DNA from: Pelagibius sp. Alg239-R121
Lineage (GTDB): Bacteria > Pseudomonadota > Alphaproteobacteria > Kiloniellales > Kiloniellaceae
Assembly: GCF_947331435.1 (NCBI RefSeq)
Contig: NZ_CAMZOF010000003.1
Span: 496,001-560,000, forward strand
Length of the DNA: 64,000 bases
Direction of reading: 5' to 3'
The position numbers and the translations under genes were made by a program. The notes beneath the pieces were generated by a model. It did no database searches. It was given only the letters and a program-made list of their open reading frames with translations, and had not been told where the DNA came from. Below are positions 21,714 through 26,142 of the stretch, one piece after another. Positions within the stretch are counted from its first letter, which is position 1; every line of letters starts with the position of its first letter.

Positions 21714-22162
21714 TGACGCAGTCGTCTGTTGAAACGCGCGCCGACTATCCGCATTTCCTTCAGATCCCGACCCGCTGGATGGATAACGATATCTACGGGC
21801 ATGTGAACAACGTCGTCTACTATGCCTACTTCGACACCGTCATTAACACCTATCTGATCGAACGGGGCGGGCTCGATATCCACAACGGTGGCGTGATCGG
21901 CGTCTGCGCTGAATCCTCCTGCCGGTACAGGGCGTCGTTCGTCTTTCCCGATGTGATCGAGGCGGGCCTGCGTGTCGCCAAACTCGGCGGGCGCAGTGTC
22001 ACCTACGAGATCGGACTGTTTAAGCAAGGCGCTGATATTGCGCCGAGTGATCAGGCTGCCGCCGAGGGGCGGTTCGTGCATGTTTTCGTCGACCGCGGCA
22101 GCATGAAGCCGGTTGCGATTCCGGAGCCCCTGCGGGCAGCGCTCAAAGCTCTGGAACGGTGA
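21713..22162 (+). CDS. Acyl-CoA thioesterase (4-hydroxybenzoyl-CoA thioesterase type)
   Basis: Hot-dog-fold thioesterase of 149 residues. The diagnostic block is [22 protein letters not shown] (about 21-42), with the catalytic Asp and the GHVNN turn. A long helix and strands such as [17 protein letters not shown] follow. It hydrolyses acyl-CoA esters in the cytosol. It is coupled to the alpha/beta hydrolase before it. The interval after it becomes AT-rich, marking the boundary of the accessory cassette. Confidence 0.9.
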
Positions 22163-22480
22163 TCTTACTTGATGGGGCAGCAAATTTTTTGCCCACCTGT
22201 CAGAGAACTTTCATAAAAACCGTATTTTTATCAATGTGTTCACCTCTGAATTCAGGTTGACGTTCGGTTAATTTTAAAATATACGTTTACAAACAATAAA
22301 ACATACGTATACTTATAAATAGATTTGAAATTGATTGCTTGGCGTTCTGCTCAGGCAATTCGGCGTCCGTACAAAACCACCAGAACCTGGCGCACGAGGC
22401 TGCCAGAACCTGTTGGAACCCACTGCACCTGTTGCAACAGCTTCGGGGCCTTGAGCCACCGTGAGCGAAGGAGACGCAAA
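22163..22480. other. AT-rich regulatory interval before the repeat-protein cassette
   Basis: About 320 bases, clearly AT-rich in 22190-22330. It holds a hairpin right after the thioesterase (GGGCA/TGCCC), a promoter candidate at 22257, an inverted repeat ATACGT/ACGTAT at about 22281-22311, and a leader of some 190 bases with two direct copies of CCAGAACCTG (near 22380 and 22403). No gene fits. Confidence 0.65.
22257..22285 (+). promoter_or_regulatory. Promoter candidate of the three-gene cassette
   Basis: TTGACG and TATACG are separated by 17 bases in an AT-rich stretch. The ATACGT...ACGTAT inverted repeat starts at the -10 element and could be an operator. Confidence 0.55.
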
Positions 22481-23548
22481 ATGCCTATCTCGATTAACAG
22501 CGACACTGGAAATATCTTTGCGGGCGGCGACGGCTCCGACGGCGATCTGGTTCTGCGCGCCAATAGCGGACAAGACCGCATTCGCCTCGATGCCGGTGGC
22601 GGCAATGCCTGGCTGGGTGGCAATGGTGCCGATGGCGATCTTGTGATGTTCCGCGCCTCCGGTAACAACACCTCGACGGCCGAAGCCTCGATCCATATCG
22701 ACGGCAATGGCGGGAACATCTTTGCAGGTGGTGACGGATCAGATGGTGATTTGGTCTTGCGCAGTACCACGGGCCAGAACCGCATCCGTCTCGATGCCGG
22801 TGGCGGAAATGCCTGGCTGGGTGGGAATGGTGCTGACGGTGATCTCGTGATGTTTCGTGCCTCGGGCAATAATACGTCCACAGCAAGTGCCTCGATCCAT
22901 GTCGATGGCAATGGCGCCAATATTTTTGCTGGCGGGCAGGGGGCTGATGGCGATCTGGTTCTTCGCAGCACCACAGGGCAAAACCGCATCCGGCTCGATG
23001 CCGGTGGCGGCAATGCCTGGTTGGGCGGCAATGGTGCCGACGGTGACCTTGTGCTGTTTCCATCGAGTGGCGACAACGAGACACTCGCACAGGCGACCAT
23101 TCATTTGAATGGCGACAGCGGGGATATCATTCTTCAGAACGCGGACTGTGCCGAGGACTTCGAGGTTGAGGATTCAGCCGATGTCGAGCCGGGCACGGTC
23201 ATGATCATCGGCGATGAACTCAAGTTGCGCAGGAGTGATCAGGCTTACGATAAGAGGGTAGCAGGCGTCGTCGCCGGTGCTGGTGAGTATCGACCCGGTA
23301 TCGTGCTTGGCCGTCGTAAAGGCCTGATCAACCAACTGCCGCTGGCTCTTGTTGGACGCATCTTCTGCAAGGTGGACGCGGAGCGGAACCCGATCGGGGT
23401 TGGTGATCTGCTGACCTCATCGCCGACGCCCGGACATGCCATGAAGGCGCAAGATCAGATGCGCGCATTCGGATCGGTGATCGGCAAGGCCCTGGGCAAC
23501 CTAAAGTCGGGTCAAGGGATGATCCCGGTTCTGGTTGCTCTGCAGTAA
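22481..23548 (+). CDS. Tandem-repeat protein with tail-fibre-like C-terminal domain
   Basis: A 355-residue Gly/Asp/Asn-rich protein with no signal peptide. Residues about 10-213 are three copies of a 68-residue unit. Each unit has two sub-repeats: a GNIFAGGDGSDGDLVLR type and a GNAWLGGNGADGDLVMF type joined by GQNRIRLDAGG. The pattern suggests a stacked beta (solenoid-like) or trimeric fibre. The C-terminal part (AEDFEVEDSADVEPGTVMII, YDKRVAGVVAGAG, VGDLLTSSPTPGHAMKA, AFGSVIGKAL) resembles domains at the end of phage-fibre-like and actinobacterial or cyanobacterial repeat proteins. AAGGAG lies 7 bases before the ATG. It is the first gene of a three-gene cassette. Function unknown. Confidence 0.75.
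   Translation: MPISINSDTGNIFAGGDGSDGDLVLRANSGQDRIRLDAGGGNAWLGGNGADGDLVMFRASGNNTSTAEASIHIDGNGGNIFAGGDGSDGDLVLRSTTGQNRIRLDAGGGNAWLGGNGADGDLVMFRASGNNTSTASASIHVDGNGANIFAGGQGADGDLVLRSTTGQNRIRLDAGGGNAWLGGNGADGDLVLFPSSGDNETLAQATIHLNGDSGDIILQNADCAEDFEVEDSADVEPGTVMIIGDELKLRRSDQAYDKRVAGVVAGAGEYRPGIVLGRRKGLINQLPLALVGRIFCKVDAERNPIGVGDLLTSSPTPGHAMKAQDQMRAFGSVIGKALGNLKSGQGMIPVLVALQ
22509..23120 (+). repeat. Three tandem 204-bp coding repeats
   Basis: Near-identical units begin at about 22509, 22713 and 22917, each 204 bp (68 codons), inside the repeat protein. Copies differ mostly at third codon positions, so they are under protein-level selection rather than freshly duplicated. Unequal crossing-over could change copy number. 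Confidence 0.85.
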
Positions 23549-23573
23549 TCGCTGCTGATCGGGAGAAACGACG

Positions 23574-24278
23574 ATGGCTACGCTAAGTGTAAAGTCGATC
23601 GCGTCGTCCTGTTTGGGGCGGAACCCGCCTCTCTCACTCAAGCGCGATGTGTTTGGTGTCTATGGCACCAACAATCAAACCCGCTCTTTGAAGGCACAGC
23701 TCGACCGGATTCAGAACAAACCTTTCCTGCGGCTTGCCCTGGTGACAGTTCGGCCTACCGGCTCGACAGCCGGACAGTACAACAATCTGCAGCGCGACAT
23801 GGATGCTGCAAACGAAGTCTGGCTGAGCGATTGCGACGCCTGGATCTATGTCGTCGGCAGCATCACCGAGACCACCAATATTCTGGGCGGCAACGGGGTG
23901 TTGGATCAACCCACCTGCCCACTGGGTGTTCAAGGCAGTCCAACCTCGGAAGAGGACGATCTTTTTGACCTCGGTCGCAATCTCGGGGCGGATGTGGTTG
24001 GCTACTATACGGCAGGATCGACCAATGGCGGGCTTGCCGGCTGCTCCTCCTATCCGGCCGGGCGGCGCGGTTTCTGGGTCCGTTTCGGCTCTTCCGCCTG
24101 GGTGCTGGCTCATGAGCTCACCCATGTTATCGGATTGAATGCACATGTCAGCACGGGCAATGCGAGCAATAGCGACAATCTGATGTGGCCGAACACGGGC
24201 TGGTCCAACCTGCCGCCGGATCTCAATGCGTCGCAATGCGACGAGATACTGGATGATCCCAGTATCGAAAGCTGTTGA
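23574..24278 (+). CDS. Metzincin-like zinc metalloprotease without signal peptide
   Basis: A 234-residue protein. Near the C-terminus is AHELTHVIGLNAH: His180, Glu181, His184, Gly187 and a third His at 191. SDNLMWP follows with Met204, a likely Met-turn. This is the metzincin layout, except that the third His is eleven residues after the first instead of ten. The N-terminal half (LRLALVTVRP, DMDAANEVW, AWIYVVGSIT) fits the strands and helix that precede a metzincin site. Cysteines at 13, 87, 115, 157 and near the C-terminus could form disulfides. No leader or transmembrane segment is seen. It lies 25 bases after the repeat protein and 14 before the HEAT gene. Confidence 0.72.
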   Translation: MATLSVKSIASSCLGRNPPLSLKRDVFGVYGTNNQTRSLKAQLDRIQNKPFLRLALVTVRPTGSTAGQYNNLQRDMDAANEVWLSDCDAWIYVVGSITETTNILGGNGVLDQPTCPLGVQGSPTSEEDDLFDLGRNLGADVVGYYTAGSTNGGLAGCSSYPAGRRGFWVRFGSSAWVLAHELTHVIGLNAHVSTGNASNSDNLMWPNTGWSNLPPDLNASQCDEILDDPSIESC

Positions 24279-24292
24279 AAGCGAGGTAAACC

Positions 24293-24763
24293 ATGGCAAC
24301 GCTTTCCGATGAACTGGCGCTACAACTCGAATCCGAATGCGGCCACACCTACGAAGAAATCGTCGCACGCAAGTCGGTCGAAGACTACCGCCAGCTAAGA
24401 TCTGTCGTTCAGGACGACAAGGAAGATATCAAGCGCCGTCAGTCGGCGATCCATCTTCTCGGTCGATTTGGCAAGAATGAAGTCGTACCGGATATCGTCG
24501 CCGCCATACCCAGGCTCGACGAGCGCGGTCTGATTGGCGCGGTTGATGCTCTGGGTCAGTTGGGCGGGAAAGAAGCGCTGAAAGCGCTGAAGCGGCAGGC
24601 AAAAAGTAAGTCGGCCGATGTACGCCGCTTTGCCGTCTCGGCCCTGGACCGGATCGGCACCAAGGAAGCCCTTACTGAAATTACAAAGATTGCGCGCGCC
24701 GATGAAAGCGGATTTGTCCGTACGAAGGCGCGAAGATTGTTGAAACGCCGCGCGGAGAAATAG
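24293..24763 (+). CDS. HEAT-repeat protein
   Basis: A 156-residue helical protein with about four HEAT (PBS-lyase-like) repeats: KRRQSAIHLLGRFGKNEVVPDIVAAI, GLIGAVDALGQLGGKEALKAL, DVRRFAVSALDRIGTKEALTEI, and FVRTKARRLLKRR. The A-x-x-ALG-x-x-G-x-x-EA pattern is clear. Such repeats form protein-binding scaffolds. The protein starts MATLS, like the metalloprotease before it. As the last gene of the cassette it ends at a strong terminator. A role as adaptor or immunity/chaperone protein for the first two products is only a guess. Confidence 0.82.
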   Translation: MATLSDELALQLESECGHTYEEIVARKSVEDYRQLRSVVQDDKEDIKRRQSAIHLLGRFGKNEVVPDIVAAIPRLDERGLIGAVDALGQLGGKEALKALKRQAKSKSADVRRFAVSALDRIGTKEALTEITKIARADESGFVRTKARRLLKRRAEK

Positions 24764-24803
24764 GGACGCCCCGCGCAGGCAAGGAACCTCCCCTGTCGAC
24801 TTA

Positions 24804-24840
24804 AGCCGGACGGAATTACTTCCGCCCGGCTCCTTTTTTT
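24804..24840 (+). terminator. Terminator of the three-gene cassette
   Basis: AGCCGG-CGGAA pairs with TTCCG-CCGGCT around TTAC, followed by CC and seven T. Confidence 0.92.
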
Positions 24841-24924
24841 CGATCGCAATTTACATCATACAGTTAGAGGACGATTCACGTTCTTGACCGTTTCCGTTAA
24901 GAACGAACCCACTCCAAAAGGTGC

Positions 24925-25392
24925 TTACGCAGCCTGGTCTTCAATCACCTTGGCAGCCTTCGATGCCTTGGCCTCGATTTTGATGCTGCGCGGCTTCATG
25001 GCTTCGGGAACTTCGCGGGCCAACTCGATATGCAGGAGACCGTTTTCGAGGGCAGCGCCGGCAATTCGGATGTGGTCGGCGAGCTCGAAGCTCCGCTGGA
25101 AACTGCGGTTCGCGATTCCTTGATGCAGAAACTTCGCTTCCTTGCCAGTGGCTTTGTCCTTTTTGCCCGAGATGACCAGTGAATTCTCGGTCACGGTGAT
25201 GTCGAGCTCTTCCTCGGCAAAACCGGCGACAGCCATGGAAATCCGATAGGAGTCTTCGTCAATCTTTTCGATGTTGTAGGGCGGATAGCTTGGCGCGGAT
25301 TCGTCGACACGGGCAGCCGAATCCAAAAGATTCATCATCCGGTCAAAACCGACGGTCGCGCGATAAAGGGGGGAAAGATCGTAACTACGCAT
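24925..25392 (-). CDS. Hsp20 family small heat-shock protein
   Basis: ATP-independent chaperone that holds unfolding proteins. The 155-residue product starts MRSYDLSPLYRATVGFDRM, the IbpA-type N-terminus. The alpha-crystallin domain follows: YRISMAVAGFAEEELDITV, LVISGKKD, FLHQGIANRSFQRSFELADHI and the GLLHIELAREVPE strand. GGAGGA lies about 7 bases before the ATG at 25392, whereas an ATG two codons earlier is too close to it. The 5' untranslated region has a ROSE-like hairpin over the ribosome binding site, and a sigma-32-like promoter precedes it, so heat induction is likely at both transcription and translation. Confidence 0.95.
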   Translation of the reverse strand: MRSYDLSPLYRATVGFDRMMNLLDSAARVDESAPSYPPYNIEKIDEDSYRISMAVAGFAEEELDITVTENSLVISGKKDKATGKEAKFLHQGIANRSFQRSFELADHIRIAGAALENGLLHIELAREVPEAMKPRSIKIEAKASKAAKVIEDQAA

Positions 25393-25394
25393 TG

Positions 25395-25419
25395 CCATAT
25401 CCTCCGATGAGCAACATGG
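25395..25419 (-). promoter_or_regulatory. ROSE-like RNA thermometer hairpin
   Basis: On the minus strand, CCAT...ATGG closes a stem in which GTTGCTC faces the ribosome binding site GGAGGAT. The TTGCT element opposite GGAGG, with an internal G-G mismatch, is the hallmark of ROSE elements in alphaproteobacterial Hsp20 leaders. The stem masks the ribosome binding site at low temperature. Confidence 0.65.
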
Positions 25420-25507
25420 TTGATATTCCGGGCCCACCACCATGGTCTGACCCGACGTTTGCCGCCTTCTGCAACCCTCTCTGAGGCATTGCCTGGCGAC
25501 AGTTTAG

Positions 25508-25536
25508 ATATAGTTTGGCGGAAAATTGGCTTCAAG
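25508..25536 (-). promoter_or_regulatory. Sigma-32-like heat-shock promoter of the Hsp20 gene
   Basis: On the minus strand CTTGAA and CTATAT are 17 bases apart, like the alphaproteobacterial heat-shock consensus. It would give a leader of about 110 bases that includes the ROSE-like hairpin. Confidence 0.6.
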
Positions 25537-25728
25537 AGGGGGGCATTATTTTTTCGGCCCTAAGCATTGTTTCCAGCTAAACTATTGATAATAAATACAA
25601 CGAAGGCGAATCTGTTAATCATTGAGACCAACCAATTGTTAAGGCGGTAGTTGGTAGACTCTCTGCTTCTGTGGCCGTTTGTTCGGTCGTTCGTTTATAA
25701 TCGGTTTTAGGCCGAAACCTGGGTAGCT
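25537..25728. other. AT-rich divergent intergenic part
   Basis: With the Hsp20 leader this makes a gene-free stretch of about 335 bases. This half is AT-rich and should hold the rcdA promoter. I see no gene or clear structure in it. Confidence 0.5.
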
Positions 25729-26142
25729 TTGATTTTGAATACGTCGGCGGCACCTGTAGCGTTTTTTGACTCGACCTACGATGAGGCGATGACCCTCATG
25801 CGGGAGTCGCGCGACTACCTGACGCATCATGACCGCGCTGAACGTGCCAAGATGACGCCGGAAGCTCAGCTCTGGGCGAGCTGTGAAACCATGAGGCTTA
25901 CGGCGCGTTTAACCCAGATCATGGCCTGGCTCCTGATCCAGAAAGCCGTTCATGCCGGCGAGATCTCGCGGATCGACGCGGCTGCCGCTGAACACCGGCT
26001 GTCAGGGCAGGATGTCTGTGATACGACCGGCTGTGTTGAGGAAGTGATCCTGCAGCCCAAGCTGATGGAGCTGCTTGATCGCAGCCACCGGCTGTATCAG
26101 CGTGTCGCCCGGCTGGATTCGATGCTGGATGGTGTCGCTTAG
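25729..26142 (+). CDS. rcdA: DUF1465/RcdA family protein (regulator of CtrA degradation)
   Basis: In Caulobacter, RcdA is an adaptor that brings CtrA to ClpXP at the G1-S transition. The 137-residue helical protein shows the family pattern: FFDSTYDEAMTLMRESRDYLTH, AQLWASCETMRLTARLTQIMAWLLIQKAVHAGEIS, and a C-terminal LMELLDRSHRLYQRVARLDSML. The start is uncertain. The conserved N-terminal FFxxTYDEA block lies before the first ATG, so translation must begin at a TTG (25729 or 25735). Identification rests on motif memory of DUF1465. Family membership is firm, but conservation of the CtrA role is inferred. Confidence 0.83.
   Translation: MILNTSAAPVAFFDSTYDEAMTLMRESRDYLTHHDRAERAKMTPEAQLWASCETMRLTARLTQIMAWLLIQKAVHAGEISRIDAAAAEHRLSGQDVCDTTGCVEEVILQPKLMELLDRSHRLYQRVARLDSMLDGVA

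Follow-up and report, generated by a model that had tools for sequence, protein, structure and literature searches.

Type VI secretion system (T6SS) effectors of the RIX/MIX type and secreted adaptors combine a short common module with many unrelated enzyme domains, and show a three-gene layout of adaptor, effector and immunity gene (PMC10435454; this and the other articles are cited from excerpts). Extracellular contractile injection systems (eCIS) have been described with their cargo and tail fibres (PMC8213781; PMC11297309; PMC12923769), and in the Mep72-BamI pair a metzincin protease is co-encoded with a partner that may hold it inactive (PMC4334185). Phage tail spikes and fibres have C-terminal intramolecular chaperone domains, of the Peptidase_G2 or the separate S74/ICA type. 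Here, we describe a three-gene cassette of Pelagibius sp. Alg239-R121, encoding a fibre-like protein, a metzincin-type zinc protease and a HEAT-repeat protein, in a stretch of 64,000 nucleotides (the window; contig NZ_CAMZOF010000003.1, positions 496,001 to 560,000). It had been singled out in an earlier interpretation of the letters of the window (the sequence-only reading). We give about even weight to the view that the locus is a member of a mobile, polymorphic fibre-cargo cassette, in which a short terminal tag docks an exchangeable enzyme to the fibre.

Each of the described systems resembles the cassette in part. The common module and the three-gene layout recall RIX/MIX-type effectors; however, RIX has been described as an N-terminal, T6SS-dependent module of Vibrionaceae (PMC10435454), whereas the cassette tag stands at either end of its protein, is tied to a fibre and occurs in many phyla. 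A phage-derived fibre, signal-less proteins and a patchy distribution are shared with eCIS cargo and tail fibres, but the window cassette lies outside an eCIS operon, the structural part linked to it is the fibre, and 25 of the 43 fibre-positive genomes are without the eCIS marker Pvc16_N. Like Mep72, the window protease is a metzincin with a co-encoded partner; unlike it, Mep72 has a signal sequence, BamI is partly natively unfolded where the partner here is a HEAT protein, and no fibre is mentioned in the excerpted account of Mep72-BamI (PMC4334185). The fibre domain has the C-terminal place behind a repeat shaft that is typical of phage chaperone domains, and 20 of its 78 members match Peptidase_G2 weakly (E<=0.1, best 9.8e-5; the window copy is not among these), whereas its close relatives occur mostly in cellular contigs, adjoining enzyme genes, and none of the 78 members matches Peptidase_S74 at E<=0.1. 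The cassette works much like polymorphic effector systems: as judged from the sequences, one constant module accompanies many unrelated enzyme domains, with exchange by transfer. No named system tested fits, and no description of this cassette was found in open PMC papers; on this basis, and not on that of mechanism, it is apparently undescribed.

Results

Relatives of the C-terminal fibre domain were sought in genome contigs with a ten-domain alignment, which gave at least 468 relatives among 584 pattern stretches, the best 80 being kept. The fibre also matched 11 plasmid records, nine of which were read in context (two Leptospira records were left out). With the window itself, four IMG/VR loci (L097 repeats L027) and two later genome loci, this made 96 loci. 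A protease profile (E<=1e-4) matched 29 of them, always on the strand of the fibre gene and downstream of it except at L012, the weak matches being those of L056 (1.9e-8) and L053 (3.5e-5). A HEAT profile matched 23 loci, all within these 29, and none of the 67 loci without the protease. The protease profile had been trained on 21 of the 96 loci and the HEAT profile on 13, so that 8 and 10 matches, respectively, are new; profiles built without the window proteins matched the latter with 127 and 64 bits (only these two query proteins were searched). By Pfam, HEAT was seen at two further protease loci, L012 and L054, once over and once just under the cut-off, and not at L089, a member by the HEAT profile; no HEAT family appeared in a Pfam tally of 72 hand-picked partner open reading frames (ORFs). 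Moreover, a relative from the window's own family (G022) has the fibre, the protease and a HEAT-like third gene. Because homologous genes recur in the same arrangement in unrelated genomes, the arrangement is not a chance one, and homology indicates that the three genes belong together as a recurring unit, with HEAT found only where the protease is. The sequence-only reading had proposed such a unit and had named scattered homologs, or ordinary metabolic functions, as what would speak against it; neither was found in the sequence comparisons.

Three loci differ in detail. On a Streptomyces avidinii plasmid (L012, 5800-6435) the fibre-domain gene is unannotated, and the protease and HEAT genes lie upstream, in a different order. 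On an Acaryochloris plasmid (L008, 6469-6762) the partner keeps a tag-like start, but the remaining frame is short and does not resemble the protease; it appears to be a decayed copy. A supposed fibre-protease fusion at L095 was rejected, the two genes lying in different frames 3 bases apart.

The window protease, rightly taken for a zinc enzyme, has an HExxHxxG-type zinc site (HELTHVIGLNAH) and a family-invariant Met204, as metzincins have, and contains six cysteines. In the classical metzincin spacing the third histidine stands one residue earlier than in this family, whose members L026 and L089 are without it. As a single sequence the protease had no significant Pfam match; a 21-row profile of its family reached adamalysin/reprolysin structures in the PDB (best E 1.5e-7), and motif and family profile together identify it as a metzincin. 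The HEAT assignment of the third protein likewise held, with Pfam HEAT_2 (PF13646) at E 8.3e-20 and 71.3 bits against a cut-off of 27.7. A search with 8-residue patterns of the protease found no close relatives in viral or genome contigs, as the family is divergent and profiles are needed. A single-sequence search in the order found it in its own genome only (1/61), an absence that is weak evidence because the fibre-domain profile found the cassette in the family relative G022.

The fibre protein had been described as a repeat protein with a tail-fibre-like C-terminus, and both parts were recovered. Over its first 210 residues it shows a repeat period of 68 aa (81% identity), and its last 150 form a separate conserved domain. 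Pfam gave nothing for the window copy of this domain at E<=0.1, neither NCBIfam nor PHROG matched it at E<=0.001, and the PDB contained no meaningful match for the fibre or its domain; one of the 78 domain members matches a tail-fibre PHROG. As to the self-processing fibre that the sequence-only reading had raised, Peptidase_G2 is an autocleavage domain, and the window copy is not among its matches. Phage-tail relatives of the domain were found: distant copies (29-36%) form the ends of proteins on three IMG/VR contigs, and from one such copy 14 phage records were reached, 11 of Pseudomonas phages, with one annotated as baseplate wedge subunit and tail pin. The other four of the seven IMG/VR loci are close copies with tagged or known-type partners. 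These close copies (L097-L100, 56-61%) lie in contigs of 4.9 to 76 kb classed as viral, and may therefore reflect prophage transport in some hosts. A phage origin of the window fibre is less likely, as the whole protein has no match in 50,697 phage records and no phage gene adjoining the window cassette was recognised by eye. Tail fibres are ordered as trimers (PMC12923769) and an endosialidase-type chaperone domain drives trimerisation (PMC3742443), from which, by analogy, the fibre is probably trimeric.

Further arrangements of the domain were seen. Genome G480 has 11 distant copies besides one close copy, and in its contig L143 (1895-4192 and 4452-6467) distant copies are fused to M6-like and papain-like secreted protease ends (families assigned by eye). 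At L141 (4159-6374), which is the locus of L035, a tandem pair of fibre genes precedes a single phosphoesterase partner.

At other fibre loci the next gene differs. Pfam types among the 72 hand-picked ORFs included reprolysins, phosphoesterase, lipase class 3, metallophosphoesterase, Exo_endo_phos and galactose-oxidase/kelch, so that esterase, lipase, phosphatase and oxidase types are represented; many of the 72 are without any Pfam family. When a qualifying partner was defined as the first downstream ORF of at least 100 aa on the same strand with a gap of up to 120, 71 of 90 loci had one, and the cores of these 71 partners, ends excluded, cluster into 31 families. The sister fibre domains of L027 and L047 (support 99) have unrelated partners. 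On these comparisons many partners are exchangeable, the protease among them, and a sizeable share of them carry a common terminal tag. One partner family (L014, L082, L094, L096; mostly about 445 aa) has N-terminal TTIRG/SLRxNI-like elements and no Pfam name that was seen.

Many partners with unlike cores have similar ends, in which an S-[hydrophobic]-[R/K]-x-x-[hydrophobic] element occurs two or three times (the tag). At least two motifs were present in the first 100 residues of 27/70 partners, compared with 2/404 distant ORFs and a mean of 0.5 for shuffled partners. A wider pattern, counted at either end, gave at least two motifs in 41/71 partners and 4/267 distant ORFs of the same loci, and at least three in 18/71 and 0/267. 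By family, 15 of the 31 have at least two motifs (background draws: mean 0.7, highest 4). Since the motif pattern was defined post hoc, three further tests are important. A profile of 23 protease N-termini (36 aa) placed seven partner C-termini from outside the training family at the top of 1049 targets (E 2e-7 to 0.03), which include 442 distant and 442 reversed ORFs, the best of these at E 0.33; five of the seven are mutually homologous, in a family partly of HExxH type. Across the 43 fibre-positive genomes (about 255 Mb), all 24 matches of the module profile at E<=0.006 have a fibre domain at a distance of 13-2473 bases, six of them not training rows, one of which (G490) is close to a training row. 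Among loci fetched later, and read by eye, the partners at L098, L099, L100, L139 and L140 belong to families encountered before, and L138 has a partner of a further type carrying TLRQLL and SLRQLL (L137 and L141 repeat L041 and L035). At L101-L103, L142 and L143, which have distant domains, no tagged partner was seen by eye. Two partners (L138, 1901-2626; L063, 8463-10052) combine Tat-like signals with tag-like elements, also by eye. A tag-like match near the eCIS of the window's genome (E 0.96) was dismissed as a 47-aa frame.

The 77 fibre loci assigned come from 17 phyla, two of them archaeal with one metagenome-assembled genome (MAG) each. On a 78-row tree of the fibre domain, in which 3 of 75 branches are starred and support is weak, there are 43 changes of phylum and 10 of the protease label, the latter compared with 20.8 in shuffles. 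The cassette is rare: it was found in at least 2/398 genomes of the window's phylum, namely its own and, as a distant copy, G255, and in at least 3/292 genomes of the phylum of L018, including L018's own, both figures being lower bounds because only some first-look candidates were scored. The cassette appears to be horizontally mobile in many bacterial phyla, and perhaps in archaea.

The features of the window cassette are listed in Table 1. Its tight spacing was confirmed from the ORFs, with 25 bases between the fibre and protease genes and 14 between the protease and HEAT genes. The fibre is best started at the ATG at 22481, which has a GAAGGAG-like site before it, the alternative being a longer ORF from the TTG at 22325. 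An AT-rich boundary is present as claimed, G+C being 0.43-0.45 over 22050-22499 (300-base windows) compared with 0.55-0.66 within 1.5 kb either side; a second dip (0.44-0.48) lies at 25350-25799, and the cassette itself is of ordinary G+C and compositionally not odd. As for the proposed promoter, a site scoring 10/12 exists; but a consensus scan found such sites no more often than in shuffles (2 against a mean of 1.4). The strong terminator proposed was recovered by folding, 24795-24850 reaching -19.4 kcal/mol (z -3.2) with a 7-base T run; a terminator consensus scan did not report it and gave a single match elsewhere. Rfam had no match at gathering score in 22100-25000. In agreement with the earlier claim, no Sec signal was seen by eye in any of the three proteins. 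Directly downstream, on the opposite strand, lies an Hsp20-like gene (24925-25443, minus; by eye).

Table 1. Features of the three-gene cassette (positions in the window).
Feature	Position	Strand	Basis
AT-rich boundary and leader	22163..22480	+	Composition; promoter-like TTTACA-16-TATACT at 22286-22313
Fibre gene, 355 aa	22481..23548	+	ORF calling, repeats, homologs
Three beta-type repeats of the fibre shaft, 68 aa, third shorter	22511..23101	+	Lag 68, 81% identity
Conserved fibre C-terminal domain, about 150 aa	23090..23545	+	Two alignments and relatives
Metzincin-type protease, 234 aa, putative partner or cargo	23574..24278	+	Profile match; adamalysin structures
N-terminal tag of protease, SVKSIA / SLKRDV / SLKAQL	23574..23717	+	Residues 5, 21, 38
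Zinc-site motif HELTHVIGLNAH	24111..24146	+	Protease residues 180-191, family alignment
Invariant Met of protease family (residue 204)	24183-24185	+	Family alignment
HEAT-repeat protein, 156 aa	24293..24763	+	Pfam HEAT_2; homologs confined to protease loci
Intrinsic terminator	24804..24840	+	Fold and T run

Discussion

That enzymes next to the fibre are swapped yet often keep the same tag suggests the fibre as their carrier; and as strong tag matches were found only at fibre loci, a matched pair is favoured over a general export signal, within the sensitivity of the search. The first gene would encode a fibre, probably trimeric, whose repeat shaft varies while its C-terminal domain, of the phage-fibre type, stays nearly constant. 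The product of the second gene would often be an active enzyme, in many cases with two or three S-[hydrophobic]-[R/K] elements forming a short module at one end, and this module would dock it on the constant domain of the fibre, so that unrelated enzymes could be swapped on one carrier. In the window the swappable load would be the metzincin, and the HEAT protein may hold the protease inactive, or aid its loading, until assembly; the product would act outside the cell. A more specific version, possible though on balance doubtful, is a cell-encoded carrier: a free-standing trimeric fibre with one equivalent site per C-terminal domain, on which an enzyme docks by as many as three S-[hydrophobic]-[R/K] elements, each taking one subunit, giving a signal-peptide-free particle whose load is swapped by way of the downstream gene and which has spread by gene transfer through many bacterial phyla, possibly archaea.

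Several points weigh against the fibre-cargo interpretation. The tag pattern was written after seeing these loci and was widened between the two counts, training and test loci overlap largely, and 30/71 partners and 16/31 families are without the two-motif pattern. The partner set leaves out 19/90 loci, including some with known partners (L057, L059, L095), and a few of its 71 members are probably mis-called ORFs, as at L029, where the real partner is a protease. The tag search covered fibre-positive genomes only, and its first unlinked match (G492, E 0.0075) is barely weaker than the last linked ones. The module profile is also insensitive: 9/43 genomes have no match at E<=1, including G467, even though its own partner was used for training, and a match in G022 (E 0.03) is unlinked, while the protease beside the fibre there went undetected. 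Furthermore, 16/23 HEAT frames have 285-441 aa, next to which the window HEAT protein is short at 156 aa, and many loci are MAG contigs.

A competing explanation, which we regard as unlikely but still worth serious attention, is that the tag chiefly signals export by, or loading into, a machine that works without signal peptides, an eCIS or another contractile system, the fibre being a co-exported adaptor or targeting part as in the RIX/MIX type. Several of the enzymes belong to usually secreted classes, and a crude scan for signal-like segments found them in 0/85 fibre ORFs and 3/71 partners compared with 52/267 background ORFs (the scan took each ORF at its longest, so that some starts may lie too far upstream, and it did not detect a signal seen by eye in the L015 fibre). 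In addition, Pvc16_N was present in 18/43 fibre-positive genomes (of mixed phyla, the window's included) and in 18/397 others of the window's phylum (Fisher p 5e-11), as well as in 4/11 fibre-positive genomes taken as Pseudomonadota, including the window's own and G022 (p 0.0016; the window's phylum was assumed to be the same). The window's genome itself has an eCIS cluster (G000:C2:646919-674579, L144-L145), with sheath, tube, Pvc16_N, an AAA ATPase, two eCIS_core and two Baseplate_J proteins and a DUF6519/beta-helix protein. However, this cluster, with the only Pvc16_N of the genome, is on another contig, so that the window cassette is not in an eCIS operon, and the ORFs of the 60 kb around it gave no meaningful tag or fibre-domain match. 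Apart from the 25 fibre-positive genomes in which the marker was not seen, the 18 that bear it have it on a different contig from the fibre or, in two, more than 1 Mb away. The contractile export route raised by the sequence-only reading is therefore backed at the level of genomes and not by location; for type I and type VI export, which it had also raised, no indication was met, although no search aimed at them, or at T6SS genes, was made. eCIS tend to occur in environmental microbes and, in five phyla, in larger genomes (PMC8213781), and as phylogeny and genome size confound the comparison, the association of eCIS with the fibre is suggestive, confounded and a lead only. Moreover, the signals described for eCIS are N-terminal with no conserved sequence detected (PMC11297309), unlike the tag with its place at either end, and partners at L138, L063 and L015 have Tat- or Sec-like signals of their own (by eye).

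It is improbable, in our view, that the cassette is instead an intracellular conflict or defence device, with the fibre as a phage-tail decoy or sensor and the protease as a toxin that the HEAT protein inhibits. The phage-tail relatives of the fibre domain and the confinement of HEAT to protease loci would agree with such a device, as would the precedent of a metzincin whose toxicity in E. coli is lifted by the neighbouring BamI (PMC4334185). With PADLOC, the fibre resembled PDC-S05 (E 1.7e-5, over 20 residues of Gly-rich repeat) and the HEAT protein HEAT-type models (best E 9.3e-6), but we judge such matches to be expected from a Gly-rich repeat and a HEAT repeat alone. Lipase, phosphoesterase and galactose-oxidase-like partners would be odd for an intracellular sensor, and no HEAT protein was found at the 67 loci without the protease. 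Even less credible, and disfavoured, is the idea that the enzymes are ordinary extracellular or surface ones that came to adjoin a phage-derived adhesin by chance or through local duplication, with the tag as a common helix-start motif. The motif is indeed short and of low information, and single motifs occur in 44/404 background ORFs (about 11%); nevertheless, the excess of partners with two or more motifs, whether in the N-terminal 100 residues or at either end, the fibre linkage of all 24 strong tag matches and the span of 17 phyla argue against it.

Should the fibre-cargo interpretation be true, microbes would carry and exchange enzymes in a new way, by one fibre design with many loads, each marked with a tag that can be transplanted. 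A conserved domain that has at least 468 relatives and no good Pfam or NCBIfam match would thereby gain a role, and the interpretation would explain why several enzymes of usually secreted classes lack a signal peptide.

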